Origin: Methylobacillus caricis
Lineage (GTDB): Bacteria; Pseudomonadota; Gammaproteobacteria; Burkholderiales; Methylophilaceae
Assembly: GCF_020532705.1 (NCBI RefSeq)
Contig: NZ_JAJAVD010000004.1
Location: forward strand, 186,001-250,000
DNA: 64,000 bases
Direction of reading: 5' to 3'
Shown here: piece by piece, positions 26,328-51,146 of the stretch
Layout of the letters: the number at the start of each line of letters is the position of its first letter
Numbering within the stretch: position 1 is the stretch's first letter
The notes under the pieces: generated by a model
What the model was told of the DNA's origin: nothing
What the model saw: the letters and a program-made list of their open reading frames with translations, nothing else
The model's database searches: none
Made by a program: the position numbers and the translations under genes

Positions 26328-26434
26328 AATCGCACTTCCCTCCGTAAATTAATGATTATCTTGATGGTCAAAAATAAGTCTTTCCCATAAGCTCGCATCA
26401 TTAAAATTTAATTGCAGCATTCGGGGGAGACACC

Positions 26435-28552
26435 ATGCACAAAAAATCATATTCACTAAAACTCATTCCACTTGCTATATTGAGTGTATGGGGAACATCT
26501 GCTCCTGTCATGGCAGAAGATACAGACGAGAGCAAGGAATCCTTGCAGGTAATCTCTCCAGTTGTGGTGACAGCCACACGGGCAGCCCAAAGAAGCTTTG
26601 ACCTGCCAGTAGCGATTGATGTTGTCACCAAAGACCAAATTCAAGACGGTCAGGCGCAAATGACCCTGTCGGAAAGCCTGATCCGCGTCCCTGGCATTAC
26701 TGCACAGAACCGTACTCAAATGTCACAAGACCCGCAAATTTCCACACGCGGCTTTGGTGCGCGCTCTGCCTTCGGAGTACGCGGTGTACGTGTGTATGTG
26801 GATGGCATTCCTCTAACCTATCCTGATGGCAGTGGGCAACCTGGAAGTGTCGACCTTGGTACTATGCAAGGCATAGAAGTCATGCGGGGTCCGTTCTCCG
26901 CACTTTACGGAAACTCCTCAGGGGGCGTATTGCAACTGCTAACAGAAAACGCGCCAGCAGGTCATGAGTTATCTGCAGGCATATTATTCGGCAGCTATGA
27001 CACTCGTCGCGAGAATGCACGGGCCGCAGGCACTGCAGATGGACTGGAATACCTCATTAACTATAGCAATTACTCATCCGACGGCTACCGCGACCATAGC
27101 AGCAACAAGAAGGAGCAAGGTACTGCCAAGTTCCGTTTCAACCTGAACGCGGATACCAAGCTCACTACTTTGATCAACTGGTTTGACCAGGAGGCGGATG
27201 ATCCGCTTGGGCTGAACCGTAATGAAGTTCGCACAAACCGTAAACAGGCGGCGCCAAGCGCATTACGTGCTGATACCCGTGTTTCCCGTAGCCAAACCCA
27301 AGTGGGATTCAATCTTGAACATAAGATTAATGAGAGCAACTCGATCAATCTGATCACCTATGTAGGCAATCGCAAAAACGAACAATATCTCTCGATCAAT
27401 CAACTAACTGCAGTGGGCCGTGCCAGCTCGATAGATCGTGAATTCTGGGGTACAGACCTGCGCTGGAACAACAAAGGCGAGTTGCTCAACCGGCCTTATA
27501 CCATAAGCCTGGGCCTGACTTATGGGAAAATGAAAGATGACCGTCTGGATATTAATGCAAACAATGGCGTAAAAACCGGTGTCTTGAACCGCGACGAAGA
27601 AAACATCGCCACCAACTCCGACAAGTACATTCAAGCCCAGTGGTCCGTGCTTGACAATCTCGACCTGCACTTGGGCGCTCGCCGCACCAAAGTCACATTG
27701 GAAGTCGATGACAACCTATTGACGGTGGGTGGAGATAACAGTGGCCGGGTTTCCTACGAAAAAACCACTCCTGTATTTGGCGCAGTCTGGAAAGTCACGC
27801 CAAGTTGGAACTTCTATGCCAATTACGGCAAAGGATTTGAAACTCCAACCTTCATTGAGGCCGCTTACGCAACTGCCGTATCTACCAGCGGCCCTAATCT
27901 TGGCTTGAAACCCAGTGAAAGCCGTAATTTTGAGGTTGGCACAAAAGCATTCATTGGCAATAACACCATTGCCAACCTAACTTTATTCAATATCAGGACT
28001 GAAGACGAAATCTTGGTGCAGGAAAATAATCTAGGTACCGTCAGCTATATGAATGCAAGCAAAACTAAGCGTAATGGAGCAGAGTTTTCAGTAGAGTCCA
28101 AATTCAACAATAACATCTCATTGTTTGGCTCTTATACATTGCTTAACGCAAAATTTGATGAGGCCTACACCTATGTTGTGAATGGAACTCCAAATTTTGT
28201 CGCGTCCGGTAACTACATACCAGGTACATATCGTACCCAGATTTATGGTGAGGTTGCTTGGAAGCATCAGGCCAGCGGATTTAATACCGCCTTTGAAGCC
28301 CGTCACAACAGCAAAGTTTATACCGATGACCAGAATACAGAGTCTGCTGGTTCGTACACGATTTTCAACATTCGCGCTGGTTTCCAGCAAAAACTTCAAA
28401 ACTGGCGCTTCAGTGAATACGTACGTGTAGAAAATATATTCGACAAGGACTATATCGGTTCCATCCGTGTCAATGATGGCAACTCACGTTTTTATGAGCC
28501 AGCAGCTGGCCGCAACTGGCTAATGGGCCTCAACGCCACCTATATGTTCTGA
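26435..28552 (+). CDS. pqqU: TonB-dependent receptor, PqqU (YncD)-like
   Basis: Outer-membrane receptor of 705 residues: signal peptide (about 1-27), TonB box PVVVTATR, plug domain (RGFGARSAFGVRGVRVYVDG, GPFSALYGNSSGGVL) and a 22-strand barrel ending in aromatic MF. From memory it resembles E. coli YncD/PqqU along its length, for example LSESL..VPG, PDGSGQ, GYRDHS and FYEPAAGRN near the end. PqqU imports PQQ. The location beside PQQ-associated genes supports a role in taking up PQQ or a related ligand. GGGGGAG precedes the ATG. A 17-bp-stem terminator follows. Confidence 0.8.
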   Translation: MHKKSYSLKLIPLAILSVWGTSAPVMAEDTDESKESLQVISPVVVTATRAAQRSFDLPVAIDVVTKDQIQDGQAQMTLSESLIRVPGITAQNRTQMSQDPQISTRGFGARSAFGVRGVRVYVDGIPLTYPDGSGQPGSVDLGTMQGIEVMRGPFSALYGNSSGGVLQLLTENAPAGHELSAGILFGSYDTRRENARAAGTADGLEYLINYSNYSSDGYRDHSSNKKEQGTAKFRFNLNADTKLTTLINWFDQEADDPLGLNRNEVRTNRKQAAPSALRADTRVSRSQTQVGFNLEHKINESNSINLITYVGNRKNEQYLSINQLTAVGRASSIDREFWGTDLRWNNKGELLNRPYTISLGLTYGKMKDDRLDINANNGVKTGVLNRDEENIATNSDKYIQAQWSVLDNLDLHLGARRTKVTLEVDDNLLTVGGDNSGRVSYEKTTPVFGAVWKVTPSWNFYANYGKGFETPTFIEAAYATAVSTSGPNLGLKPSESRNFEVGTKAFIGNNTIANLTLFNIRTEDEILVQENNLGTVSYMNASKTKRNGAEFSVESKFNNNISLFGSYTLLNAKFDEAYTYVVNGTPNFVASGNYIPGTYRTQIYGEVAWKHQASGFNTAFEARHNSKVYTDDQNTESAGSYTIFNIRAGFQQKLQNWRFSEYVRVENIFDKDYIGSIRVNDGNSRFYEPAAGRNWLMGLNATYMF

Positions 28553-28570
28553 GCTTCCTCCTCCCTCATC

Positions 28571-28613
28571 CGGGGTTTACTGCACAGCTGTTATTACTGT
28601 GCAGTAAACCCCG
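28571..28613 (+). terminator. Strong hairpin terminator after the PqqU-like receptor
   Basis: Seventeen perfectly paired bases starting CGGGGTTTACTGCACAG, with a nine-base loop, followed by a T-rich stretch. It lies 19 bases after the receptor stop. Confidence 0.8.
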
Positions 28614-28676
28614 TCTTTGTTGTATGCTTGGCAAAATAATAAAAACATACTGGGTGGTATATGGAGATGAGAGATC

Positions 28677-29480
28677 ATGACAACCGCATTCAATCGCCGC
28701 ATTATCATTGCACTGACAACCATCACTATTGCAGGTACAGGCAATACTGTATGGGCTGAGGCCTCAACCGAAATCTGGCCGGTCATGAAAGAAGGCTTTT
28801 TTCCCAAACGGACTATAGAGGAAGCTGACTTTATCAAGCTTTCTGGCCCCAAGCGTGCTGAAAGCGGTGCCCAAGTACCCATCACATTGACAATAGACAA
28901 GCCACAGAATGCTCCCGATGCCATCAAGTCGGTCTATATCATCGTTGATGCAAATCCCATCCCGCTGGCAGCCACCTATCACCTTTCGGAACAGTTAGGA
29001 AAATTGCAGCTTTCTACACGTATTCGCCTGGAAACTGATTCATACATCCATGCTGTTGGCGAAACAGCAGATGGCAAACTCTATATGACCGCCATTCCCA
29101 TTCGCGCCTCCGGTGGCTGTGGTGGCGTTGTTGATGGCGATGACAAGGCGGTGCTGGCCGCTGCCGGCAAGATTAAGATGAACGTCGAAACGCCAGTGAC
29201 ATTCGCGCAGCCAACCACCGCCACATTTATCATCAAGCACCCGATGTTTACCGGACTGCAACGGGATCTGGTATCACAAGGTTTTCGTCCGGCTTTTTAT
29301 ATCCAGAAAGCCAGCTTCACCTATGATGGCAAGCCGGTACTGGATGTCGACTTTGGCGTAGGCACCAGTGAGGACCCTTATCTGCGGTTTGATTTTGTAC
29401 CGCCAGCAGCCGGTACGCTTGAGGTCAAAGCCAGTGACAATGAAGAAGGGAAATTTGCGTACGCTGTCACAGTGGAATGA
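28677..29480 (+). CDS. Quinoprotein dehydrogenase-associated SoxYZ-like carrier
   Basis: Exported 267-residue protein. The signal peptide ends near residue 27 (VWA before EAS). The first part is SoxY-like and contains SGGCGG, with the single cysteine at about residue 148, matching the thiol-carrying motif of SoxY. The second part (about 165-267) is SoxZ-like. In thiosulfate oxidation SoxYZ carries sulfur intermediates, but fused forms of this type occur next to PQQ dehydrogenases and no other sox genes are in the window. GGAGATGAGAG precedes the ATG. Confidence 0.88.
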   Translation: MTTAFNRRIIIALTTITIAGTGNTVWAEASTEIWPVMKEGFFPKRTIEEADFIKLSGPKRAESGAQVPITLTIDKPQNAPDAIKSVYIIVDANPIPLAATYHLSEQLGKLQLSTRIRLETDSYIHAVGETADGKLYMTAIPIRASGGCGGVVDGDDKAVLAAAGKIKMNVETPVTFAQPTTATFIIKHPMFTGLQRDLVSQGFRPAFYIQKASFTYDGKPVLDVDFGVGTSEDPYLRFDFVPPAAGTLEVKASDNEEGKFAYAVTVE

Positions 29481-29500
29481 CCAACACCAGCAATAAAAAA

Positions 29501-29524
29501 GGACGCCACAGCCGCGTCCTTTTT
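29501..29524. terminator. Bidirectional terminator
   Basis: GGACGC, seven-base loop, GCGTCC flanked by A6 and T6. It separates the convergent SoxYZ-like and cytochrome b561 genes and would work on both strands. Confidence 0.85.
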
Positions 29525-29546
29525 TATTTAAACCATACAGTTATCG

Positions 29547-30149
29547 TCATTTAAAAAATGACATGCGCTTCATCGTATCGTCCCGGTCAATCCATCTGTG
29601 CTTGAGGGCAGCAGCAATATGCAGAGTGATCAGCAAGAACAGTATCGTTGCAGTGAGCTCATGCGCGGATACAAAAAAATCTCGCAAATCAGGCTCGTCC
29701 AACCCCGGCAATACGGGAATGGAAAACCAGCTCAGGCCATATTTACTGTAAAGCGTGGTCAACATCCCCGTCACGGGCATCAGTACCATGAGCAAATAAA
29801 GCAAGTGATGGGTGCCATGCGCTAATACTTTTTCCCAGCGCTTCAATGAGTCTTGTAAAGGAGGGGGTTGATGAGTCAATCGCCAGTAAACCCTCAAACC
29901 CACCAGGAAAAAAACCGTCAGCCCAACGGATTTATGCAGGTTGAAATAGAAGGTACGGGGGGATACAGCCTCTGACAAATGCAAGGTATAGAGCCCGAGA
30001 TCAAACAGGTCAAAACTCATTACCTTTGGGCCGCCTTTAGGCAGTTCATTCATGTACCAGCCAAGACCGAACAGGACAAGAATGCCCAACCCCACCAACC
30101 AGTGCAGTGCAATGGCAACTTTGCCATATCGTAAAACCGCGTTATTCAT
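29547..30149 (-). CDS. Cytochrome b561-family membrane protein
   Basis: 200 residues with four transmembrane segments and histidines at the expected places (IALHWLVG near residue 16, NLHKSVGL, HGTHHLLYLLM, HELTATILFLLITLHIAAALKH), which would bind two b hemes. This family passes electrons between the quinone pool and periplasmic proteins. In this cluster it could connect the SoxYZ-like carrier or a quinoprotein to ubiquinone; that is inference. It is followed upstream by the beta-propeller gene in the same direction, 84 bases away. Confidence 0.9.
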   Translation of the reverse strand: MNNAVLRYGKVAIALHWLVGLGILVLFGLGWYMNELPKGGPKVMSFDLFDLGLYTLHLSEAVSPRTFYFNLHKSVGLTVFFLVGLRVYWRLTHQPPPLQDSLKRWEKVLAHGTHHLLYLLMVLMPVTGMLTTLYSKYGLSWFSIPVLPGLDEPDLRDFFVSAHELTATILFLLITLHIAAALKHRWIDRDDTMKRMSFFK

Positions 30150-30233
30150 TTCTTATCTCGCCAATAGAACATGCCGACTATGGCGTGGCTATCCTGCACA
30201 TAACAACCACGCCCTGTCAGCATGATGGTCTAC

Positions 30234-31187
30234 TTAGTGTACAAATACACCCCAGGGTGTGTCACCGACTGTGATTTCCTTGATGGCCTTGTCACTTTCT
30301 GTATCAATCACAGATACAGAATTGGACTTGCCATTGGCAACATACAATTTCTTGCCGTCTGGTGTGATATCCATGTTCCATGGACGCTTACCCACAGGAA
30401 TAGTGGCAGTGACCTTGTTGGTCGCAGTGTCAATGACGGACAATGTGCCGTCACCGCCATTAGAGATATAGACCTTTTTGCCATTCGGCAGCACTTTAAC
30501 GCCATTGGAACGCAGGCCTACAGTGATCGTCGCAACCACTTCATGCTTGCTAGTATCAAACACTGATACAGTGCCGGCAGCTTCATTAGCTACATAGGCC
30601 CTTGAGCTGTCTGGTAGGAAACCAATGCCGCGTGGACGCTCGCCCACTTCAACCAGTTTCACGGAAGTGCGTTTTGCTATATCCACCACGTCAACGTATT
30701 TGGCTTCTTCAGCGCTTACATACATCCATTTCCCATCAGGGCTGAACTCGGCATGCTCTGGGTTCTTACCCTGCATTTTGACTTTGTAGCTCACTTTATG
30801 CGTGGCGGTATCAATCACCGACACCGTGTTGTCTTCCTCATTGGCAGCAGAAATCCATTTGCCATCATGGGAAATACCTACGCCCTCAGGAGATTCATCC
30901 AGCTTGATTGTATCGGAAATGGATTTCTTGGCGAGATCAATGACCAGTAATGCATTCTGTTTCTGATCGCTGACAAACATATACTTGCCATCATTGGTAA
31001 TTGCCGCGCCACGAGGCTTCTTGCCTGCCTTGAAACTTCCAACAACTTTGTCCGTTTGGGTATCGATAATGGATACCGTCCCCGATTTTTCATTGGTGGA
31101 ATAAGCAAAAGGTGCTGCCAGCAGCGAACCTGAAAAAAATAAAGCAGCAGTCGCCGCCACGAGCTTTAACTCAATTTTGCATTGCAT
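30234..31187 (-). CDS. PQQ-dependent catabolism-associated beta-propeller protein
   Basis: Periplasmic protein of 317 residues: signal peptide to about residue 24 (SGSLLAA), then seven or so YVTN/40-residue propeller blades, each with a 'VSVIDT' strand and a 'GKKPRGAAITNDGKYMFVSD'-like turn. Proteins of this kind co-occur with PQQ dehydrogenases, but their function is undefined. The frame begins at 31199, but the ATG at 31187 has GGAG six bases upstream. It is divergent from the MBL-fold gene across a 118-base gap. Confidence 0.9.
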   Translation of the reverse strand: MQCKIELKLVAATAALFFSGSLLAAPFAYSTNEKSGTVSIIDTQTDKVVGSFKAGKKPRGAAITNDGKYMFVSDQKQNALLVIDLAKKSISDTIKLDESPEGVGISHDGKWISAANEEDNTVSVIDTATHKVSYKVKMQGKNPEHAEFSPDGKWMYVSAEEAKYVDVVDIAKRTSVKLVEVGERPRGIGFLPDSSRAYVANEAAGTVSVFDTSKHEVVATITVGLRSNGVKVLPNGKKVYISNGGDGTLSVIDTATNKVTATIPVGKRPWNMDITPDGKKLYVANGKSNSVSVIDTESDKAIKEITVGDTPWGVFVH

Positions 31188-31305
31188 AACGTTCTCCATG
31201 TTCTTACAAACTCATTCTAGTCGTTTTTATAACGCATTGTTTCAGACGCCGTACGATTGCTCAAGTTCCATCTGATGTTTACAGAGTGGTATACAGACAT
31301 TTAAC

Positions 31306-32313
31306 ATGTGCATTTACACTTGGACAAGCCACTTCCCAATGATACCCGTTTCGGCTGTTGATTTTTCACGCATGATACTGGGCACCTGTTTCAGAATAGT
31401 AACAGGGCTGGCAATAATAAATCTCGGATTCATCATATCTGCCCAGGCAATCGCAGCAGACTTGTTGATCAAAGAAGTGGCTCCTGGCATTTATGTGCAT
31501 CAAGGCGCACATGAAGACCTGGATGAAGGTTACCACGGCGATATCAGCAATATCGGCTTTATCATAGGAAGCAAAGGAGTCGCCGTCATTGATACCGGTG
31601 GCAGCTATCTCGTTGGCAGTGCATTACGCCAAGCGATCGCTGCGGTCACGAAGCTGCCAGTGCTTTATGTCATCAACACGCACATCCATCCTGACCATAT
31701 TTTTGGTAATGCGGCATTCCTCGCGGACAAACCAGCGTTCATTGGCCACAAGAAGCTCGCCAACGCCATGGAGCTACGCAAGGACGCCTATATACGGCAA
31801 GGCAACAATCTATTGCAGGAAGCATTTTCAGGCAGTGAAATCGTCAAACCGACAATGACTGTCGACAATACCCAGGCCATTGACCTGGGCGGAAGAAAGT
31901 TGCTACTCACGGCCTACTCCACCTCTCACACCAATACGGACCTCACTGTTTTCGATGAAAAAACCGGTACTCTCTGGACTGGCGATCTGCTTTTTATTGA
32001 TCGCACCCCTTCTATTGATGGTGATATCAAAGGCTGGCTGGTGACCATAGGCACTCTCAAGCAGCTACAAGGTGTCAACATCGCAATCCCTGGGCACGGC
32101 CCTGTGACTACAGCATTCAGCACTGCGCTGGACAATGAATCCCGCTACCTGGAACTATTGCTTAATGATGTACGCACTTCTATCAAGAAAGGCAGGACCA
32201 TGGAGCAGACCATGCAGTCTGCTGCAGAGCAGGAGCGGGACAAATGGGCGCTGTTTAATGCCGTTAACCGGCGTAATGTGAACCTGATCTATCCTGTTCT
32301 TGAATGGGAGTAG
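31306..32313 (+). CDS. Quinoprotein relay-type MBL-fold metallohydrolase
   Basis: 335-residue metallo-beta-lactamase-fold protein. The zinc motif HIHPDH is at about residues 126-131, with SHTNTD, WTGDLLF and IPGHGP supplying further ligands. A hydrophobic segment at about residues 23-50 ending AQAIA looks like a signal peptide, so the true start may be the ATG at 31372. It matches the family named quinoprotein relay system zinc metallohydrolase; I cannot separate subtypes 1 and 2 with certainty. Substrate unknown. Confidence 0.85.
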   Translation: MCIYTWTSHFPMIPVSAVDFSRMILGTCFRIVTGLAIINLGFIISAQAIAADLLIKEVAPGIYVHQGAHEDLDEGYHGDISNIGFIIGSKGVAVIDTGGSYLVGSALRQAIAAVTKLPVLYVINTHIHPDHIFGNAAFLADKPAFIGHKKLANAMELRKDAYIRQGNNLLQEAFSGSEIVKPTMTVDNTQAIDLGGRKLLLTAYSTSHTNTDLTVFDEKTGTLWTGDLLFIDRTPSIDGDIKGWLVTIGTLKQLQGVNIAIPGHGPVTTAFSTALDNESRYLELLLNDVRTSIKKGRTMEQTMQSAAEQERDKWALFNAVNRRNVNLIYPVLEWE

Positions 32314-32401
32314 GCAGGAATATGGAAAATGTTTCCTAGTGCCTGGTCCAATAATTCAGCTATACCGCATAATAAGCAGCATAAAAACTTCACGAACCCT
32401 C

Positions 32402-33208
32402 ATGTCGGCCTCTATTACACTACCATCATCCGGTAAGGATCGGACACTAGGCTGGGCCATTCTGGGCTCCCTGGCATTGCATGCAATTATTGCCTTGCAG
32501 TTGCCCGCTTTCGATTTTGCACAGGATGACGAGACACCTCCAGTACTGACTGTAGAACTTGCCCCGTCGGCTGCACCTGCATCACCCGTCGCCCCGGCAC
32601 CGGTGTCAGAACCAGAGCCCCAAAAAATACCGGAACCAGAACCTGTAAAGAAACCTGAGCCGATCAAGCCGCTCCCGAAGCCTGTGCCTGTGGCTCCAGC
32701 TGTCAAACCAGCTCCCAAAGTGATTGAGGAAGTGGCGCCAAACAAGCCAGAAGAACCCACAGAAAGCGCTCCTCCACCAGCGTCTGCTGCGCCTGAGGTC
32801 ATGTCAGTAGCCCCCAAAGAACACTCTGTGCCGGCTCAAACTGTTCCAGCACCTCTTCCTGCACCGCCGCCTCCAGTCCAGGCACAAGGCCCCAGCCAAC
32901 AGGATCTGGATGCAGCGCGCAACCTTTATGGCAGTATGCTGGCGCGTGCAATTTCCAAATACAAACAATATCCAAAGATCGCACAGATGCGAGGCTGGGA
33001 AGGCGAGGTCATCGTCGAGGTTCAAAGCGATGGCAACGGAAATATCATCTCGAGCAAAATCCAGAAATCCAGTGGCCACAAGGTTCTGGATGAACAGGCA
33101 TTGACGATGGTGAAGAAAGCTTCCCCATTGCCTACTCCGCCGGAAATGTTACGGGGTAAAACACTGAATATTCTTGTACCCATTCCTTTTAGCCTGGAAG
33201 ACTCATGA
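32402..33208 (+). CDS. tonB: TonB-family energy transducer
   Basis: 268 residues: one N-terminal membrane anchor (about 18-34), a long proline-rich spacer with many PEP and KP repeats that spans the periplasm (about 45-170), and a C-terminal TonB domain with GWEGEVIVEVQSDGNG and SSGHKVLDEQALTMVKKA. It transmits inner-membrane proton-motive energy to TonB-dependent receptors, of which three are in this window. No exbB or exbD is seen. An earlier in-frame start at 32300 lies within the preceding gene. The stop overlaps the kinase start (ATGA). Confidence 0.9.
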   Translation: MSASITLPSSGKDRTLGWAILGSLALHAIIALQLPAFDFAQDDETPPVLTVELAPSAAPASPVAPAPVSEPEPQKIPEPEPVKKPEPIKPLPKPVPVAPAVKPAPKVIEEVAPNKPEEPTESAPPPASAAPEVMSVAPKEHSVPAQTVPAPLPAPPPPVQAQGPSQQDLDAARNLYGSMLARAISKYKQYPKIAQMRGWEGEVIVEVQSDGNGNIISSKIQKSSGHKVLDEQALTMVKKASPLPTPPEMLRGKTLNILVPIPFSLEDS

Positions 33209-34674
33209 GCCAACAAGCCCGCTCAAAATCATTGAAAGATGTATTGCTGATCCATGAGCTGACGTTCATTTTGCTCGTCGCGCTTGCGGGCACTGCAGGT
33301 GTGATCGGTATGCGGTTGTGGGACCAGTCCTCCCAGGAATCACAGCGAATCAACCTGATGGTGCAAGAAATTCAGCAAACCCGCGGTGATCTTTATCGCC
33401 AGATGAAAGAGCTGTTTGATATGTATTTCCTCAAGGATCCGCAGGCGCAGGAGGAATACAACGTCTATACACAATCCATAGGTGTGCACTTCCAGAAACT
33501 GCTTGAACTGACAGTGGACCAAGAAGAAAAATCCGCCATTCTGGACCTGCAGAACAGCTATCAGGCATTCGTGATTGAAACACAGCATTTTTTCAGCCGG
33601 CCGCAAGACTATAGCGACGAAGCCCTGGAGAAGACGCTGAACACCCATCTGGAATCAGGCATCTTTCATCGTTACGAGATCATCTCGGCACGCGCCGAAC
33701 GACTTTTGCTGGTCAAGCAGCGTGAATTATCCTCCAGGCTGGAGGAGGCCAAAAGCACATCCATTACCTTGCTTATGGTACCAATAGGGCTGGCCCTGCT
33801 GTTGCTTGTGTTCTCCCGCATATTCCTGAATCGGGCCATAGTGCGCCCAATCCGGGGAGTATTGCACGCCACCAATGAAATAAGTACAGGTAATCTGGAC
33901 TACAAGGCGCCGGAAGAAGGTGTTGCCGAACTGGCAACATTGTCCCAATCAATCAACCGCATGGCAGAAGAGCTCGCCCACAGCCAGGAAGCCCTGGTAC
34001 GTTCGGAAAAACAAGCGGCTTTGGGCCTATTGGTGCCCATGCTCGCGCATAACATCCGCAATCCGCTCGCAAGCATCCGCGCAACAGCCCAGGTTGCAGA
34101 CAGCAATGAATTGGATCAGGAAACGCGAGACTCCCTCAAAGCCATCATCAGCACGGTAGACCGGCTTGATCGGTGGACGCACGCCTTGCTGGCTTACTTG
34201 CACCCCCTTAAACCCCAGCCGAGCTTCACCACCCTGAGGCAAGTACTGCAAGGGTCTCTTGTCCCATTGCAGCAAAAAATTCAGGAAAAATCATTACGCC
34301 TGGTCCTGCCTGACTGGCAAGATCAGGATGATCGCATTTTTACGGATGAAAACCTGCTGGAACAAGCGCTATACAATCTACTACTGAATGCGGTTGAGGC
34401 CTCTCCACCCCACACCACTATAGAAATCCGGAGCGCACTGCAAAAGGATATGATTCATATCGTGATCAATGACCAGGGTCCAGGCATGCCTTTCACGCCT
34501 GATCCCCACGCAATCAGCCCCGGTCCCACCACCAAACGCTTTGGTACCGGACTTGGTATTCCATTTGCCTTCAAAGTGTTTGAGGCATTATCCGGCAATA
34601 TTTATTTCAACTCCCACATCAAGGGAGGCACGTCCACCGAGTTGACATTGCCTCGCAATCATCAGCAAAGCTAG
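33205..34674 (+). CDS. Membrane sensor histidine kinase
   Basis: 489 residues. Two membrane segments (about 15-35 and 188-208) flank a helical periplasmic sensor of about 150 residues; a HAMP domain follows, then the H-box AHNIRNPLASIRA (His near 276), N-box LLLNAVEAS, DQGPGMP and GTGLGIPFAFKV. The HNIRNP box is of the NtrB/NtrY-like kind. No response regulator is adjacent, so the partner is unknown. It overlaps tonB by four bases, an uncommon coupling. Confidence 0.9.
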   Translation: MSQQARSKSLKDVLLIHELTFILLVALAGTAGVIGMRLWDQSSQESQRINLMVQEIQQTRGDLYRQMKELFDMYFLKDPQAQEEYNVYTQSIGVHFQKLLELTVDQEEKSAILDLQNSYQAFVIETQHFFSRPQDYSDEALEKTLNTHLESGIFHRYEIISARAERLLLVKQRELSSRLEEAKSTSITLLMVPIGLALLLLVFSRIFLNRAIVRPIRGVLHATNEISTGNLDYKAPEEGVAELATLSQSINRMAEELAHSQEALVRSEKQAALGLLVPMLAHNIRNPLASIRATAQVADSNELDQETRDSLKAIISTVDRLDRWTHALLAYLHPLKPQPSFTTLRQVLQGSLVPLQQKIQEKSLRLVLPDWQDQDDRIFTDENLLEQALYNLLLNAVEASPPHTTIEIRSALQKDMIHIVINDQGPGMPFTPDPHAISPGPTTKRFGTGLGIPFAFKVFEALSGNIYFNSHIKGGTSTELTLPRNHQQS

Positions 34675-39589: not shown

Positions 39590-40120
39590 TTACTGAGGCT
39601 TTTCAGTCAGCCAAGGCTTGTCACCGCCGCCCTTGTACTGGCTGCGCAGGAAACCAATAATTTTCAGGATTTCATCTGTAGTCACCAAATCAGGGTTGCC
39701 AGAGACTTGTTTATGCCAAGTCGCCATCCCGCCATTGGAACCACCGGCGATAGTTTCAAACATACCCTTGTCGGTGATATGTTTGTTGTACTGCCAACGG
39801 TCATCAGTAATAGATACTGCTACTTGGCCGTCCCCGTTAGGGCCGTGGCATGTAGTGCAGGAATACAAGCCAAACTTGCTCTTGCCCTGCTTAGCCTTGG
39901 CTGGATCATCTGCAAAAATCTTTGTATAAGGATTCACACAGGTTTCCAGAAACTGCTTGGCCTCAGGGGTATCCTCAGGTTCGATCTTGATATTCAACGG
40001 ACTATTGTCCTTCGTCGATACCAAATTACATGCAGCACTAGCCTGCATAGGCATTGCCAGTCCTACCAGCGCCAGAATAGAGGCCGCCAAAGTTGCTTTT
40101 ACCACTCCATGATTCAACAT
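39590..40120 (-). CDS. xoxG: XoxG-type cytochrome c (electron acceptor of XoxF)
   Basis: Periplasmic c-type cytochrome of 176 residues. The signal peptide ends near residue 29 (MQASA before AC). The single heme motif CTTCH is at residues 88-92, and a later methionine, in GGMATWHKQ, could be the distal ligand. Family members (cytochrome cL) take electrons from methanol dehydrogenase. The gene lies downstream of xoxJ and xoxF in the same direction, which supports xoxG rather than an unrelated cytochrome. Confidence 0.92.
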   Translation of the reverse strand: MLNHGVVKATLAASILALVGLAMPMQASAACNLVSTKDNSPLNIKIEPEDTPEAKQFLETCVNPYTKIFADDPAKAKQGKSKFGLYSCTTCHGPNGDGQVAVSITDDRWQYNKHITDKGMFETIAGGSNGGMATWHKQVSGNPDLVTTDEILKIIGFLRSQYKGGGDKPWLTEKPQ

Positions 40121-40239: not shown

Positions 40240-41160
40240 TTACTCAAATTTGGGAATAACATCCCCTTTATCCCTGCCTTTTTTCTCGACGCTATCTCCC
40301 TCGACCACTGGAACATGCGGAATCCCATATTCATCGAGTATCTTGATAATGTCGTCATGGCGGCGGTCCAGCACCTCTTGCAACACAGCCAGGCGTTCTT
40401 TGTCGCGCTTGCGTACCGCCAAGGAAATATTCCAGTACTCCTTGCCATGTATATTTTCCTTTTCGTACTCTGGCGCAGGGACAACTACCAAAGGAACGCT
40501 TGATTTCTTAGCATAGTAGCCAGCAATTGGCCCCCAAAGCACCGCCACATCAATATCCCCCTTCACCAAATCATCGATGATAAAGCTGGGCGGCAGGTTG
40601 AGATCGCGCATGATGCGGTAGGGGCGGGAATTACCCAGCAACCCTTTATCAGAAAGAGGGCGAGAAGGTGGAGTCTGGCCAACTACACCAATAAGACCTT
40701 TACGGAGATCCGGGGAATCCCAGTCCTTGATGTCATAGCCACTATCCTTGCGGTAAACGAATACATAGCCAGAGCGATAATACGGCTTGGAAGTCAATAG
40801 CATATCATTGCCATCAACTGTTCCAATGATCACATCGCAACGATGTGCATTGATTGTGTTTCTAATGAAACCCATGCGGTCATACCAGAACTGATATGAC
40901 AAAGTCTTGCCAAGATCTTTAGCGATCAATTCGGCAATCTTATTTTCAAAACCTTCTTGCTTGCCATTGGAATACGGCAAGTTATCAAAATCTGCACACA
41001 CCTTAAACTCATTCGGGTTATCTTCCCGAACCGGCAAACCACCACGGCCTACTTCACTATCCACATCCAGTGTATTCGTAGCCGGCCCATCAGCCAAAGC
41101 TACCTGAGTAAATCCAGTTAATAACAATAAAAGGGAAACTTTTTTCAGCGTTTTGAGCAT
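40240..41160 (-). CDS. xoxJ: XoxJ/MxaJ-type periplasmic solute-binding-like protein
   Basis: 306 residues with a signal peptide (about 1-23, ending VALA) and a family 3 solute-binding fold (about 50-285): FKVCADFDNLPYSN, AHRCDVIIGTVDGNDMLLTS, GDIDVAVLWGPIAGYYAKKS. XoxJ and MxaJ are accessory proteins of methanol dehydrogenase; binding to the dehydrogenase and help with its activation have been proposed. It lies between xoxF and xoxG. The short acidic and basic C-terminal tail is not conserved in the family as far as I recall. Confidence 0.92.
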   Translation of the reverse strand: MLKTLKKVSLLLLLTGFTQVALADGPATNTLDVDSEVGRGGLPVREDNPNEFKVCADFDNLPYSNGKQEGFENKIAELIAKDLGKTLSYQFWYDRMGFIRNTINAHRCDVIIGTVDGNDMLLTSKPYYRSGYVFVYRKDSGYDIKDWDSPDLRKGLIGVVGQTPPSRPLSDKGLLGNSRPYRIMRDLNLPPSFIIDDLVKGDIDVAVLWGPIAGYYAKKSSVPLVVVPAPEYEKENIHGKEYWNISLAVRKRDKERLAVLQEVLDRRHDDIIKILDEYGIPHVPVVEGDSVEKKGRDKGDVIPKFE

Positions 41161-41295: not shown

Positions 41296-43173
41296 TTACA
41301 GGCTGAACACGTTCAGTGCACCGCCGCCAGGAGCAGCGTTGTACTTGGTCAGTTCTTTGTAACCACCAGCTGCGCCCAGCGCATCAGTGGAGTTTTCCAA
41401 ACCAAGGTTCATCGCTACACCAGCCCAACCGCCGATACCGGACAGTACGCCAACGTATTGCTTACCCTTGTGGCTGTATGTGAATGCATTGCCAATCACA
41501 CCAGAACCAACTTGGAACTTCCAGAGTTCTTTACCGGACTGTGCATCAACAGCCTTGAACCAACGGTCCAGAGTACCGTAGAACACCAAGTCAGAAGCTG
41601 TAGTCAGAACACCACCCCAAGCAGAGAATTTCTCCTTGTTGTACCACTTGCTCTTGTTGGTCATTGGATCATAAGCAGCAAAGCCACCCATTACACCATC
41701 AGGACCAGCAAACATGGTCAGAGTAGCGCCAACCCATGGCTGACCAGCGATGTACTTGGACTCAACTGGTTCGTATGTCATACAAACGTGGTTAAGTGGT
41801 GAGTACACTAGGCCAGTACGTGGGGAGTAAGCTGCAGGCTGTTGGTCTTTTGTACCCAGCGCTGCTGGGCAAATACCCTTGGCGTTGTAATCTTGGTGAG
41901 TAGAGTACTTACCATCTTTTTGTGGCACGCCAGACTTGATGTCAACACCAGTTGCCCAGTTAACGAATGGATGCACTTTTTCAGCAGCGATGATGGTACC
42001 GTTCGATGCGTCAAATGTGTAAGCAAAACCGTTACGGTCATGGTGCCAAGCGTATGTCTTGCCGCCCTTGTCGAACAGGATGACTTCGTTGATGCCGTCA
42101 TAATCCCACTCGTCGTGAGGAGTCATTTGATAACCCCACTTAGCGATACCAGTGTCCAGATCGCGAGCAAAGATTGTCATGGACCACTTGTTGTCACCTG
42201 GACGTACGTCTGGGTTCCAAACAGATGGGTTACCAGTGCCGTAGTAAACCAGATTAGTCTTCTGGTCATATGGCCACCAACCCCATGTAGAGCCACCGCC
42301 GTGTTGCCAGCCGTCTTTAACAGCTTGTGGCTTCAGCCATGTCTTAACACCAAGGTCTTTTTCTGGGAACTTCAGCTTTTCCTTAGGCAGAGCCTTGAAG
42401 GAGCCGCCTTCTTTGTTACCACCGTTCACGTCTTCATAAACAGACAATGAACTGTAGTGTGGATTGTCCTTGTTGAAGTCAGCGCCGATCAGTACTTCAG
42501 AGTCAGGACCTGTGCTGTATGCCTTCCATGCCAGGGAGCCGTCTTTCAGGTTGTACGCAGCCAGGAAGCAACGAACACCGAATTCAGCACCTGAACACCC
42601 AGTCAGAACCTTATCCTTGATCACGTGAGGAGCGTTAGTGTTAGTAGCGCCAACCTTAGGATCATTAACCTTTACATCCCAAACCTTCTTACCGGTCTTG
42701 GCATCAAGAGCAATCAATACACCGTCGTTCTGTTGCAAGAAGATCTTGCCATCGCCAAAGCCCAGACCACGACTTACGTTATCGCAGCAGAGAACGGCTT
42801 GTACAGATGGGTCTTGCTTAGGGAAATATGACCAAACAATCTTTTGATTGTCGTTCAGGTCAAGGGCATATACGTTGTTAGGGAATGCTGTATGTACATA
42901 CATCATGTTGCCATTAACAACAGGTGAACCTTCATGACCGCGGTTTACACCAGTAGCAAAGTTCCATGCTGCCTTAACGTTCTTTACGTTGCTCTTGGTG
43001 ATTTGATTCAGGGTGCTGTAACCCTGGTTGTTGTGCTGACCACGTGGGTGCACCCAGTTATTTGGATCCTTCATAGCGGCTTCTTGATCTGCAGCTGCGG
43101 ATGCAACCATAGGCAATGCCATGGCCATACCGAATGCTACACCTAGAGCCAGCTTGACTTTGCTCATCTCCAT
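41296..43173 (-). CDS. xoxF: XoxF, lanthanide-dependent PQQ methanol dehydrogenase
   Basis: Periplasmic quinoprotein of 625 residues with a signal peptide (about 1-26, ASA before AAD) and an eight-bladed propeller. The vicinal cysteines C129-C130 form the disulfide over PQQ. Metal ligands are Glu197 (GAEFG), Asn315 (GTGNPSVWN) and the catalytic Asp357. The DYD in HDEWDYDG puts an extra aspartate at 359; calcium-type MxaF has alanine there, so this enzyme is predicted to use a light lanthanide. It oxidises methanol to formaldehyde or formate and passes electrons to XoxG. No mxaF or mxaI is in the window. MSKVK at codon 3 is an alternative start. Confidence 0.97.
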   Translation of the reverse strand: MEMSKVKLALGVAFGMAMALPMVASAAADQEAAMKDPNNWVHPRGQHNNQGYSTLNQITKSNVKNVKAAWNFATGVNRGHEGSPVVNGNMMYVHTAFPNNVYALDLNDNQKIVWSYFPKQDPSVQAVLCCDNVSRGLGFGDGKIFLQQNDGVLIALDAKTGKKVWDVKVNDPKVGATNTNAPHVIKDKVLTGCSGAEFGVRCFLAAYNLKDGSLAWKAYSTGPDSEVLIGADFNKDNPHYSSLSVYEDVNGGNKEGGSFKALPKEKLKFPEKDLGVKTWLKPQAVKDGWQHGGGSTWGWWPYDQKTNLVYYGTGNPSVWNPDVRPGDNKWSMTIFARDLDTGIAKWGYQMTPHDEWDYDGINEVILFDKGGKTYAWHHDRNGFAYTFDASNGTIIAAEKVHPFVNWATGVDIKSGVPQKDGKYSTHQDYNAKGICPAALGTKDQQPAAYSPRTGLVYSPLNHVCMTYEPVESKYIAGQPWVGATLTMFAGPDGVMGGFAAYDPMTNKSKWYNKEKFSAWGGVLTTASDLVFYGTLDRWFKAVDAQSGKELWKFQVGSGVIGNAFTYSHKGKQYVGVLSGIGGWAGVAMNLGLENSTDALGAAGGYKELTKYNAAPGGGALNVFSL

Positions 43174-43445: not shown

Positions 43446-44405
43446 ATGACTACCACACTTTTCCCGGAAATTCAGCCTTATCACCACGACTGGCTTAATG
43501 TATCGCCGACCCATCAAATATATTTTGAACAGTCAGGCAATCCCGGGGGACAACCTGTTGTGTTTCTGCACGGTGGGCCGGGCAGCGGTTGCAATCCAGG
43601 ACAGAGACGATACTTTGACCCCGAACACTATCGGATCATCTTGCTGGACCAACGCGGCTGTGGTCGGAGCAAACCGCAAGGCTGCATAGAGGAAAATACG
43701 ACGCCACACCTGGTCGAGGATATTGACGCCCTGCGCCAACATCTGGATATTGATCGCTGGCTGGTATTTGGCGGTTCCTGGGGTAGTACGCTCGCACTGA
43801 ATTACGCACTTGCATATCCCCAACACGTGACCGGGCTTGTATTACGTGGCATATTTCTCAGCCGCCCCAGTGAACTTGCATGGTTTCTGCAGGACATTGA
43901 ACACTTTTTCCCTGAGAACTGGGCACAACTGCTTTCATATTTGCCAATAGCGGAACGCAGCAACCCCTTATCAGCGTTTGCCAAACGTGTATTTTCCGAA
44001 GATCCTGTTATCAGCGAAGCTGCAGCGATCCACTGGAACGCATACGAGGCCAGCATCATGACCCTGCTCCCATCAACACAGACAAATAGCGGCCCTATCA
44101 ATGGATCACTGGAACTGGCCCGTGCCAGAGTGCAGATTCACTACATACAGAACCAATGCTTTGTCGGACATCGCGATTTGCTCAAGGAAGCCAGCAAATT
44201 GGCCCATATTCCTACCGTGATAGTACAGGGACGTTACGATATGGTGTGCCCCCCCCTGACAGCACACCTGCTCCATCAAGCCATGCCCCATGCAGAGTTC
44301 CATATGATCCCGGATGCCGGGCATTCAGGCATGGAACCAGGCACCAGTGCCGCTTTGGTTGCCGCTACCGAGAAATTTAAGAGACAATCAGCGCTCGTCG
44401 GCTAA
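43446..44405 (+). CDS. pip: Proline iminopeptidase
   Basis: Alpha/beta-hydrolase of 319 residues that removes N-terminal proline. The oxyanion region FLHGGPGSGCNPGQRRYFDP, the nucleophile elbow GGSWGST (Ser near 112), DQRGCGRS, and the catalytic His in PDAGHSG near residue 295 are all present. It is cytoplasmic. The gene is divergent from xoxF over a 272-base gap and ends 19 bases before the next gene. Confidence 0.95.
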   Translation: MTTTLFPEIQPYHHDWLNVSPTHQIYFEQSGNPGGQPVVFLHGGPGSGCNPGQRRYFDPEHYRIILLDQRGCGRSKPQGCIEENTTPHLVEDIDALRQHLDIDRWLVFGGSWGSTLALNYALAYPQHVTGLVLRGIFLSRPSELAWFLQDIEHFFPENWAQLLSYLPIAERSNPLSAFAKRVFSEDPVISEAAAIHWNAYEASIMTLLPSTQTNSGPINGSLELARARVQIHYIQNQCFVGHRDLLKEASKLAHIPTVIVQGRYDMVCPPLTAHLLHQAMPHAEFHMIPDAGHSGMEPGTSAALVAATEKFKRQSALVG

Positions 44406-46499: not shown

Positions 46500-48668
46500 C
46501 TAGAACTTGAAGTTCAGTGACAAGAACGCAAATCTTCCAGCAGCCACTGTCGCCAGACCACCATGTGAAGAACCTGAATTACTGAAATAACGTTTGTCTG
46601 TCAGATTCTGTACATTCAGCTGCAGATTGATACGCTCGTCAAATTTATAGGTAGCCATCGCATCCAGACGCACATAAGACGGCACCTTCAGCGTATTGGC
46701 AGTATTCACATACATTTCACCTGTATAGAATGCACCTCCACCTACGGTCAATTGCGGCAGCAGCTCATAGGTAGTCCACAAGCTGGCGCTGTTGCGTGCC
46801 ACGGTAGGTAATGGCTTTCCCTTACCCACCAGTCCAGCAGCATTAGTAGCTGTTTTTACCTGCTCGCTATCCAGGTATGTATAACCAGCAAACACACTCC
46901 ACTTATCCGCCAGACGACCTGCAGCACCAAGCTCCAGCCCTTGAACCTTGGTTTCCCCGATATTGTCCAGCAGTCCAGTGTCTACATTGGTTACCCGACT
47001 ATCTGTACGCTTGATATGGAAAATAGCAGCGTTCAGTGCTAACCCATCCAGTACATCCCACTTGGTACCAACCTCAAAACTCTTGACACGCTCTGGATCA
47101 AGATCCTGAGTGGCTACAGCAATATCTGATCCATTATCTGGACCAACAGCACCATTGCTAATACCCATAGGAACTGTTGAAGTAGCATAGGTTGCATAGA
47201 TACTGCCATTAGGTTGCACCTTGTACACCAAACCCAACTGATAATTGAAAGATCCATTATCGGACTCTCCGATACTTTCATCCCCGGCCACAATATTGAC
47301 GTGTCTTCTGGCTTCGAACTTGTCATAGCGTACACCCGCATTCAACAACCACTGATCATTGAATTCAATCGTATCAAACGCATAGATGGAGCGGTTGAAA
47401 CTGGTGCTTCTATTGTTGGCATCGTGGTCTGGGAAACTGACCGTTGCCACACCGGCAGGTGCGGTATTATCTGGATTGTGGGCATCCACATTCGGGTTCA
47501 ATCCAGGAACTGCCACATTACGGTATTGATATGTCACATCCCGACTGATAGTCACGCCCACATTCATGGTGTGCTTGATTTCAGCCGTATTGAAGCCAAA
47601 TGAGACATCTGTCGTATTCGCCACACTTGTCGTTTTAACTTTACGCGCGTGATTGGTACGTGTCAGGAATGGAAAATTGGCTGCAGCTCCACCTGGGGAA
47701 GTCATCACATATTCATTATCCGATGTGCCATAACGGCTGGTATTTCTCAATGTCACATCGTTATCAAAGGTATGCTTCAACTCAAGTGTGCCAATATCCG
47801 TATTGGTCTCTTGATAATCCCGATTGGTATACCCGAAAAAATTATCCTTGCTGACATGAATGGGCTTGCCGTTCAGGAATGGGAAACCGCGGTCTGGTGT
47901 ATCATCCGACTCCATGTGATACCAGCTTACTGTAGCAGTGGTTGGTCCATTCAGCCCCAGCGTCAGAGATGGCATGAACCCCCAACGCTTCACATCTACA
48001 CCATCCCGTCCTGGAGTATCGGCATCATGGGTCATCCCTACCAGACGGATAGCAGCATCTTCCCCTAACATATAGTTGCCATCAAACGTCACACGCCGAT
48101 AATCATCTGTCCCGATACCCACAGAACCCGAGGTAAAATTATCTGCCTTGGCTTTCTTGGTAATGATATTAATACTACCTCCGGCAGAGCCTTGCCCATC
48201 AAATGCACCACCCGGCCCCTTGATTACCTCAACACGCTCAATCGCAAAAATCTCACGATTCTGCGTCGCAAGGTCGCGGAAACCATCAACAAAGATAGAA
48301 GCCTGTGCATCATATCCTCGAATAAATGGACGATCAGACATGGCGCCACCTGAGCCGCCTTCGCCAACCCCAAATGTAATACCCGGTGTTGTACGCAAAG
48401 CATCCTGCAATGTCAGGGAGCCACTATCCTTGATCACATCCTCTGTAATCACAGTGACAGTCTTCGGCGTATCCTTCAGTGACGCAGTAAATTTCTGGTT
48501 GGCAGACCTCTCCACCTTATAAGGATTTTCCTTCGCGGATTGGATCTGCAATTCAGGCAATGTCAGCGCCTCATCTGCCGAATATGCTGCCCCGGCAAAA
48601 AGCATCGCAACCGCTGTTGCGACGGGCTTCATCACAGCATCGTAGTTTTTTGTAATCATTTTGCGCAT
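46500..48668 (-). CDS. TonB-dependent siderophore receptor, Fiu/PiuA-like (copy 1)
   Basis: 722-residue outer-membrane receptor: signal peptide (ending near AAYSA), plug (TVTVITEDVIKDSGSLTLQDA, RPFIRGYDAQASIFVDGFRD, GGAFDGQGSAGGSINIITK) and barrel ending FLSLNFKF. It lacks the STN signalling extension. Pairing with a PKHD hydroxylase points to catecholate siderophores. AAGGGA lies only a few bases before the first ATG, so the ATG at 48659 (MITKNYD) may be the real start. It is a close paralog of the next receptor. Confidence 0.9.
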   Translation of the reverse strand: MRKMITKNYDAVMKPVATAVAMLFAGAAYSADEALTLPELQIQSAKENPYKVERSANQKFTASLKDTPKTVTVITEDVIKDSGSLTLQDALRTTPGITFGVGEGGSGGAMSDRPFIRGYDAQASIFVDGFRDLATQNREIFAIERVEVIKGPGGAFDGQGSAGGSINIITKKAKADNFTSGSVGIGTDDYRRVTFDGNYMLGEDAAIRLVGMTHDADTPGRDGVDVKRWGFMPSLTLGLNGPTTATVSWYHMESDDTPDRGFPFLNGKPIHVSKDNFFGYTNRDYQETNTDIGTLELKHTFDNDVTLRNTSRYGTSDNEYVMTSPGGAAANFPFLTRTNHARKVKTTSVANTTDVSFGFNTAEIKHTMNVGVTISRDVTYQYRNVAVPGLNPNVDAHNPDNTAPAGVATVSFPDHDANNRSTSFNRSIYAFDTIEFNDQWLLNAGVRYDKFEARRHVNIVAGDESIGESDNGSFNYQLGLVYKVQPNGSIYATYATSTVPMGISNGAVGPDNGSDIAVATQDLDPERVKSFEVGTKWDVLDGLALNAAIFHIKRTDSRVTNVDTGLLDNIGETKVQGLELGAAGRLADKWSVFAGYTYLDSEQVKTATNAAGLVGKGKPLPTVARNSASLWTTYELLPQLTVGGGAFYTGEMYVNTANTLKVPSYVRLDAMATYKFDERINLQLNVQNLTDKRYFSNSGSSHGGLATVAAGRFAFLSLNFKF

Positions 48669-48711
48669 TTCCCTTAACTTAAATTTACAAAATTTTTGGA
48701 AACGCCAATAT

Positions 48712-48730
48712 AAATGAGAAACATCAATGA
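48712..48730. promoter_or_regulatory. Possible Fur box upstream of receptor copy 1
   Basis: AAATGAGAAACATCAATGA resembles one good Fur half-site (AATGAGAA) with a weaker second half. It is about 50 bases upstream of the gene. Similar sequence lies upstream of copy 2. Tentative. Confidence 0.35.
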
Positions 48731-48799
48731 TACAAATAAAAATTGTTTCTATTTTCTTTTGTATTTAATCCACATAAGATATAACTCTATGTCTTAAAA

Positions 48800-48835
48800 A
48801 TAAAAAATCCCTGTCAGACCAGTCTGGCAGGGATT
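48800..48835 (-). terminator. Terminator after receptor copy 2
   Basis: Fourteen-bp stem starting AATCCCTGCCAGAC on the minus strand with one mismatch and a two-base apex, then T6. It lies about 80 bases past the stop of the 48917-51100 gene. Confidence 0.8.
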
Positions 48836-48916
48836 ACTTTTTAAATATTGAAAATATGTTGTGCTTTAGCCTGCAGAAACCAATAGCTCCGCAGAGCTAA
48901 AGCACAGAAACAGGCC

Positions 48917-51100: not shown

Positions 51101-51146
51101 AATTTTCCCTTTACACAAGTTTACATATACCAAGAAACATGAATAT

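Follow-up and report, generated by a model that had tools for sequence, protein, structure and literature searches.

A PqqU-type receptor at a quinoprotein locus of Methylobacillus caricis: probable recapture of pyrroloquinoline quinone under control linked to its synthesis

Introduction

Much of methylotrophy relies on methanol dehydrogenases that have pyrroloquinoline quinone (PQQ) as their cofactor. Some methylotrophs release large amounts of it in culture, Methylovorus MP688 for instance about 125 mg/L (PMC3257108). Why should a bacterium that makes PQQ carry an outer-membrane receptor that resembles the PQQ importer of Escherichia coli? This question is raised by a locus of Methylobacillus caricis, which we analysed in a 64-kb window, i. 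e. the whole stretch of DNA under study, taken from a genome of 2.97 Mb; all coordinates are positions in this window. An earlier note, made from the sequence alone, had described the interval 26435-34674 as a PQQ-centred locus running from a PqqU-like receptor to a sensor kinase, and had proposed that it may recover or traffic PQQ, or else a metal-PQQ or lanthanophore ligand. The genes are indeed present at these positions, and the motifs LSESL, RGFGARSAFGVRG, GYRDHS, FYEPAAGRN and GGCGG are all found in their translations. We consider it very probable that the receptor is a PqqU-type importer that recaptures metal-free PQQ in a PQQ-producing bacterium; its expression is probably under a control linked to PQQ synthesis.

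Identity of the receptor

The gene pqqU (26435..28552, + strand) encodes a TonB-dependent outer-membrane receptor of 705 amino acids. Its best family is NF041535 (PqqU) with 564 bits, far above any other profile, and no profile for another ligand class scores near it. The best solved relatives by sequence are the PqqU structures 6v81 (463 bits) and 9c4o (462 bits), followed at a distance by FecA (76 bits). An AlphaFold2 model built from 29 sequences (predicted local distance difference test, pLDDT, 85.6) gives the same order: 9c4o, the PqqU-PQQ complex, and 6v81 both match with Z 46.6, the former with a root-mean-square deviation of 1.6 over 635 residues, and the next fold is FecA with Z 38.1. 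According to the published definition, a PqqU protein has an aromatic residue at position 99 in addition to R304 and R365 (PMC12124388). The window receptor has F113, R313 and R370 at these positions, with phenylalanine where E. coli has tyrosine, and Q98 and Q135 are the counterparts of the E. coli plug residues Q84 and Q121. Q98, F113, R313 and R370 are invariant across 21 receptors of the family Methylophilaceae, 20 of which are 42-69% identical to that of the window; in a wider set, F99, R304 and R365 are kept in 81/81 sequences and Q84 in 79/81. For control, 22 other TonB-dependent receptors of the genome (20 fetched and two in the window) were aligned, and the triad was seen in none of them: in 15, an aligned residue rules it out, and seven are unplaced (four without the deciding residues aligned, three without a match). 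Profile, solved relatives, fold and residues thus agree with the earlier assignment, and by the published residues the receptor is of the PqqU type rather than an NCBI equivalog. We infer from these likenesses that it transports PQQ.

A displaced charge in the binding site

In E. coli PqqU, the amine of K274 occupies the position of the catalytic metal on PQQ, and no metal density is present at PQQ in the complex; for homologues with a glutamate at 274, co-transport of a metal has been proposed. K274 is important in the E. coli protein and has no filter role in the definition of PqqU (PMC12124388). The window receptor has V283 at this position and a basic residue, R285, two residues further on. 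We compared 108 receptors, E. coli included, after removal of 11 near-identical rows and two rows of less than 600 residues: Position 274 is either lysine or arginine with a non-basic residue at 276, or valine, alanine or leucine with arginine or lysine at 276, so that exactly one basic residue stands at 274/276 in 108/108 rows, and the glutamate proposed to hold a metal is found at 274 in 0/108. On the tree, the charge changed twice, by one shift that defines a clade of 60 and by one return in two rows nested within it (L066 and L112, assigned to Methylotenera from title or genus code). What is novel, as judged from the alignment, is that the charge has moved from 274 to 276 and was never replaced by glutamate, and R285 would substitute for the K274 of E. 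coli. Since the amine of K274 marks the catalytic-metal site and a basic residue has been retained, the clade probably imports metal-free PQQ. The metal-PQQ or lanthanophore ligand of the earlier note was therefore rejected as first choice, with a lanthanophore being disfavoured.

A palindrome upstream of pqqU and pqqA

The regions upstream of pqqU from six receptors of the genus share a single conserved block (6/6). A matrix trained on 39 family pqqU upstream regions only has an information of 21.3 bits (uncorrected for kinship), whereas 20 shuffled sets give 9.6 with a maximum of 10.4, and its consensus is the palindrome TCATGA-NNN-TCATGA. Among 378 random pieces, 95% score below 7.7 and the maximum is 21.6. 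At a score of 15 or more, the matrix has a single match in the window, an operator-like motif with a score of 27.5, ATTAATGATTATCTTGATGGT (26348..26368, + strand), which is a variant of CTCATGAWWWTCATGAG and lies 66 bp before the ATG of pqqU. The genome carries pqqA to pqqE, and the perfect palindrome CTCATGAWWWTCATGAG is located 125 bp before pqqA, where it is the top match of the matrix in a 19-kb stretch (score 22.0); the other scanned stretches of this genome reach at most 17.1, apart from the pqqU site itself, and two CTCATGAWWWTCATGAG sites within one mismatch were counted in this genome, of which the pqqA site was located. Moreover, the top match lies before pqqA or pqqB in 6/6 pqq loci of the family that were scanned, with scores of 20.8 in L080 and 17.4 in L234 next to the 22.0 of the window genome. 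Because pqqA to pqqE are present and pqqU and pqqA have this upstream motif in common, the recovery of PQQ is the best among the readings that the earlier note had offered.

In the order, CTCATGAWWWTCATGAG is found with at most one mismatch in 86/399 genomes, and its reversed control in 2/399. At 30 fetched palindrome loci, pqqB stands on one side in 16, including 8/9 of the perfect sites, and a site lies 0.4-0.9 kb before a receptor match in 11/16 genomes checked, among the matches listed. Several genomes have another site at a distance of about 5 kb, which separates pqqB from an operon for TonB, a prolyl aminopeptidase, a UhpB-like kinase and a NarL/GacA-like regulator (genes of this operon were profiled in L220 only). 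Relatives of the prolyl aminopeptidase that the window encodes beside xoxF (43446..44405, + strand; TIGR01249 over cut-off) occur in other families in such TonB-kinase-regulator operons, divergent from the pqq genes. Perfect palindromes with no recognised PQQ gene nearby were seen in L211/L230 (G160) and L226 (G147:C25) and may mark other regulon members or chance matches.

The same cis element is thus present before pqqU and pqqA, although its sites are weak in part of the genomes, and a common PQQ regulon is suggested in which pqqU is probably co-regulated with pqqABCDE, and the regulator that reads the palindrome is perhaps the NarL-type two-component system encoded beside pqq in other families. 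The regulation of PqqU-dependent import and of PQQ synthesis had been inferred to be independent from the missing synteny of the genes (PMC12124388); an element common to pqqU and pqqA argues against this inference. In titles and abstracts, mostly from outside subscription journals, we found no published report of such a common element. The pqqU motif also bears some likeness to a Fur box, with 14/19 positions in the window (where four such sites exist as compared to about one per shuffle) and 16/19 in L044. Control of pqqU by Fur was considered and is the less probable reading, as the palindrome before pqqA explains the element better.

Neighbourhoods of the receptor

In a sample of 120 genomes of the family, the receptor (match threshold 1e-60) was found in 78, the SoxYZ-like carrier over cut-off in 98, the metallohydrolase of the metallo-beta-lactamase (MBL) fold over cut-off in 103, and PqqC over cut-off in 112, the window genome included. 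In 28/78 genomes, representing 13 genera, a SoxYZ-like gene over cut-off is found no more than 5 kb from the receptor; in 50/78 the receptor lies elsewhere. Two of these 50 are blocks that have lost the carrier, and in two others, G032 and G084, the receptor adjoins the pqq genes at about 3 kb from pqqC (3.2 kb in G084); in G032, of the Candidatus Methylopumilus type, it directly follows pqqB, pqqC, pqqE and a gene of the major facilitator superfamily (MFS). The consecutive order pqqB, pqqC, pqqE, MFS gene, pqqU is seen in L050 (4025-10546) and L138, of this type, and the MFS protein encoded between pqqE and pqqU could serve the passage of PQQ across the inner membrane.

We fetched 39 neighbourhoods out of the 77 other receptor genomes of the family. 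The gene block recurs in 22/39, and its order is therefore not due to chance: moaA, moeA-like, pqqU, SoxYZ, b561, MBL, TonB, peroxiredoxin and PhoH genes are followed by NDH2 and the xox genes. XoxG, XoxGJ or XoxGJF come next in 7/7 fetched blocks that extend past the NDH2 gene. Of the 22 blocks, 20 contain the SoxYZ gene and 20 the b561 gene, 19 each the MBL and tonB genes, 13 the kinase gene and 6 the propeller gene. A further place is the dut-coaBC interval, which houses the receptor in six inspected neighbourhoods of four genera (g7, g10, g19, g22). Receptors of different clades share these two spots (xox block: L056, L063, L064, L077; dut-coaBC: L058, L065), and in genus g20 their orientations at one spot are opposite, which looks like an exchange of the receptor in situ; such exchanges may be due to phage pressure. 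A SoxYZ-MBL pair (within 5 kb; the MBL list is partial) was kept without an adjoining receptor in at least 10 genomes, indicating that receptor and relay are separable. The idea of a single functional unit is weakened by these isolated pairs, by the 50/78 receptors elsewhere and by the low counts of propeller and kinase in the blocks. In L040 (10787-11146) and L041 (10459-10812), from two genomes of the genus, a small secreted-looking protein of 117-119 amino acids replaces the SoxYZ-like gene in the block.

Outside the family, we inspected the best 80 loci of a scan of named genomes; 22 of them belong to the family by title or synteny, and perhaps a few more by the tree. In 16 of the 58 non-family loci, the fetched flank holds a pqq gene or encodes an XoxF-like protein (31-39% identity, unprofiled), and on a Rahnella plasmid pqqU directly precedes an annotated PQQ dehydrogenase gene. 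In an order sample of 250 genomes, the receptor is present in 77 and the SoxYZ fusion gene in 47; the two co-occur with an odds ratio of 5.2, and of 4.5 outside the family, uncorrected for kinship. Together with the adjacency in 28/78 family genomes, this bears out the co-occurrence that the earlier note had expected. In the 72 non-family receptor genomes, a TIGR03075 dehydrogenase is encoded within 5 kb in at least four and at 12-15 kb in at least four more, and, by a comparison made by eye, a TIGR03866 match (below cut-off) within about 6 kb in four, two of them weak. In E. coli K-12, pqqU is divergent from yncE, likewise a propeller gene. The SoxYZ and MBL genes found 8-9 kb from the receptor in Methyloversatilis were not counted as linkage, an efflux-type operon lying between them (by eye). 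The receptor of L113, titled Klebsiella pneumoniae, groups with betaproteobacterial ones in the tree, and this entry is perhaps a mislabelled metagenome bin.

The companion genes

The view of the earlier note that the locus is PQQ-centred is supported. The SoxYZ-like carrier (28677..29480, + strand; TIGR04557, 242.5 bits, cut-off 140) consists of fused Pfam SoxY and SoxZ domains with the GGCGG thiol arm between them, a motif kept in 21/21 homologues. The MBL-fold protein, quinoprotein relay zinc metallohydrolase 2 (31306..32313, + strand, with an alternative start at ATG 31372; TIGR04559, 399.6 bits, cut-off 280), has a HxHPDH zinc motif intact in 19/19 homologues. Both family calls of the earlier note are therefore confirmed. 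The cytochrome b561 family protein (29547..30149, - strand, 200 amino acids) matches PF01292 and remains below the cut-off of NF008566, CybB (59.5 bits, cut-off 170); among solved structures, E. coli cytochrome b561 (5oc0) was its only match, and it is a relative of the E. coli superoxide oxidase. Carrier, b561 and metallohydrolase form a known quinoprotein accessory module that is often located beside the receptor and is separable from it. The same genome encodes another SoxYZ-like carrier with 46% identity in L074 (9877-10674), beside the gene for a small protein of 101 amino acids, with no MBL gene seen near.

The protein described as a PQQ-associated propeller (30234..31199, - strand, 321 amino acids) is a seven-bladed YVTN beta-propeller, secreted as judged from a signal peptide found by eye; the fold stands, but the family does not, as TIGR03866 scores 233.9 bits with a cut-off of 287.3. 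Its AlphaFold2 model (pLDDT 91.9) best matches the archaeal YVTN propeller 1l0q (Z 46.0), and its match to E. coli YncE is weak (49 bits). In eight sequences, Glu 37, 121, 164 and 206, at equivalent blade positions, and Arg 63, 190 and 272 are invariant; these residues may form a ligand or metal pocket.

The tonB gene is present as claimed, though its start at TTG 32300, from where the reading frame is open, is less likely than ATG 32402 (32402..33208, + strand; TIGR01352, 71.6 bits, cut-off 27.1). It is one of five genes over the TonB cut-off in the genome. Its end overlaps the start of the gene for the sensor histidine kinase (33205..34674, + strand; HAMP, HisKA and HATPase profiles). A role of this kinase as PQQ sensor found no support; 9/22 blocks are without it, although in part of these the end of the contig or of the stretch truncates the block. 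In L222 and L223, relatives with 46% identity to the kinase are encoded beside an NtrC-type regulator, near TonB, an MBL enzyme, pqqB, pqqC and pqqE, and the orphan kinase of the window may have a regulator of this type as its partner.

Past the kinase, peroxiredoxin, PhoH2-like, LplT and NDH-2-like genes lead to a XoxFGJ set, which starts after about 5 kb and was absent from the earlier note. It comprises a cytochrome c of the MoxG/XoxG kind (39590..40120, - strand; TIGR03872, 81.9 bits, below the cut-off of 147.8), a XoxJ-like (MoxJ-type) periplasmic binding protein (40240..41160, - strand; TIGR03871 over cut-off) and a XoxF-like PQQ-dependent methanol dehydrogenase (41296..43173, - strand; TIGR03075, 624 bits, cut-off 480). 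We call the latter XoxF because of its D-Y-D motif, a marker of the lanthanide type. An Rfam scan gave no match in the interval 26435-34674, a promoter and terminator scan stayed at chance level, and no match to the CCP_MauG family was found in the genome.

Discussion

How could a receptor for PQQ be of use to a bacterium that produces PQQ? We suggest that PQQ leaks from the periplasm to the outside, where it would be bound by F113, R313 and R370, with R285 in place of the E. coli K274. Driven by TonB, the bound PQQ would return to the periplasm and there reload quinoproteins such as the nearby XoxF, with no need to cross the inner membrane. The palindromic element of pqqU and pqqABCDE would tie the expression of the receptor to PQQ synthesis.

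Several observations weigh against this proposal. With 564 bits, the receptor falls short of the curated cut-off of NF041535 (1200 bits), and it has V283, isoleucine and threonine where the E. coli protein has K274, N477 and R536. At 1e-60, the receptor is missing from 42/120 family genomes, 35 of which have PqqC over cut-off, indicating that recapture is dispensable, and in 36/72 non-family receptor genomes the limit used revealed no PQQ dehydrogenase of the methanol/ethanol type. The relocation of the charge is supported by just two changes on the tree. As for the element, the one before the window pqqU is four mismatches off the palindrome, 4/39 family pqqU upstream regions score below 15, and a score of at least 15 is reached before just 10/58 non-family receptors, with low scores before most others. 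The pqq loci of L079, L235 and L050 score weakly (13.1-14.8, near background), so that their position alone is informative, and the site of L050 is just 0.1 above the next match; finally, at 14/30 palindrome loci no PQQ gene was recognised up to 1.5 kb from the site.

The receptor might take up something other than free PQQ. If PQQ entered as a complex with calcium or a lanthanide, XoxF would be supplied with metal and cofactor together. The XoxFGJ set next to the locus, the xox genes in 7/7 blocks running past NDH2 and the metal co-transport proposed for Glu274 homologues (PMC12124388) would fit such an import, but we consider it improbable: none of the 108 receptors has Glu274, one of positions 274 and 276 is basic in all of them, no metal density was seen at PQQ in the E. 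coli complex (PMC12124388), and some receptors are far from xox genes. Still less credible is a receptor for a lanthanophore or siderophore with a merely ancestral likeness to PqqU. The window does contain two more TonB-dependent receptors (46500-51133), the genome has 39 matches to such receptors, and the motif before pqqU is partly Fur-box-like, although three other places in the window equal its 14/19. Yet the residues that contact PQQ do not vary, several families have pqq or PQQ dehydrogenase genes next to the receptor gene, pqqA has the same upstream element, and FecA-type scores are far lower.

Recapture of PQQ may also be only one half of the work of the locus. In the second half, the thiol arm of the carrier would trap a sulfur or aldehyde adduct near the quinoproteins, the MBL enzyme would hydrolyse it off, and b561 would remove electrons or superoxide. 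The invariant thiol arm and zinc motif as well as the SoxYZ-MBL pairs kept where no receptor adjoins are in line with such a clean-up, and the hypotheses named in a review include disulfide formation and a protection of PQQ against adducts with sulfur (PMC12997753). We regard it as possible but rather doubtful, as no activity is established for these families, the P. putida genes have minimal phenotypes in the absence of lanthanides (PMC12997753), and the blocks of G010 and G053 have lost the carrier, of which a further copy is found at a distance of 324 kb. Alternatively, receptor and relay genes may be neighbours only via the conserved moaA-xoxF interval and have no functional link at all, as might be expected from the 50/78 receptors that lie elsewhere and from the genus in which receptors of two sequence groups fill the same spot in both orientations. 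This is a serious possibility that we hold to be slightly the weaker one, since adjacency has been retained in 13 genera, the co-occurrence holds outside the family with the odds ratio of 4.5 (uncorrected for kinship), and in L222 and L223, from another family, TonB and an MBL relative are encoded in an operon divergent from the pqq genes.

The PQQ importer proposed here can be compared to known systems. It shares with E. coli PqqU (YncD; 9c4o, 6v81; PMC12124388) the fold, an aromatic residue at 99 as well as Q84, Q121, R304, R365, Q308 and Y481, but the two proteins are only 38% identical, and the window receptor has valine for K274 with arginine two residues on, isoleucine for N477 and threonine for R536. 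It is moreover encoded in a genome with pqq genes and has the palindrome upstream, whereas the matrix scores 9.4 before E. coli pqqU, barely above random. The fused SoxYZ-like carrier and the SoxH-like metallohydrolase have counterparts near PQQ dehydrogenases in the P. putida ped cluster (PP_2677/PP_2678; PMC12997753); there, b561 is absent from the main text of that review and no PqqU or TonB was seen in the parts available, while the window genes belong to a xoxF locus of betaproteobacterial methylotrophs. For a joint action of receptor and propeller, BtuB-BtuG of Bacteroides sets a precedent, a TonB-dependent receptor with a seven-bladed propeller; BtuG, however, is a B12-binding surface lipoprotein (PMC10404256), and the window propeller has no lipobox (by eye). 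By this analogy, the neighbouring propeller could be a PQQ-handling partner of PqqU, which we regard as a lead, not a result. Common control has a parallel in AgmR/ErbR of Pseudomonas, a LuxR-type regulator of both pqq and quinoprotein genes (PMC12997753). The candidate discussed here differs from it in being NarL/GacA-like and encoded with TonB and prolyl aminopeptidase, and in that pqqU itself carries the element.

For the Betaproteobacteria as a whole, we lean towards the view that PQQ import and synthesis are one regulon. A PQQ box (CTCATGAWWWTCATGAG and its variants) would precede pqqABCDE, pqqU and, in several families, an operon for TonB, peptidase, kinase and NarL-type regulator that probably encodes its reader; receptors now located at the xox locus or between dut and coaBC would mostly have kept the box, the relocated charge of the binding site would go with it, and a neighbouring propeller would be a possible partner in E. 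coli (yncE) as well as in certain lineages. If this is true, a recapture that is co-controlled with synthesis would explain how PQQ producers limit the loss of their cofactor, and the independent regulation of the two that has been inferred in the literature would need revision.

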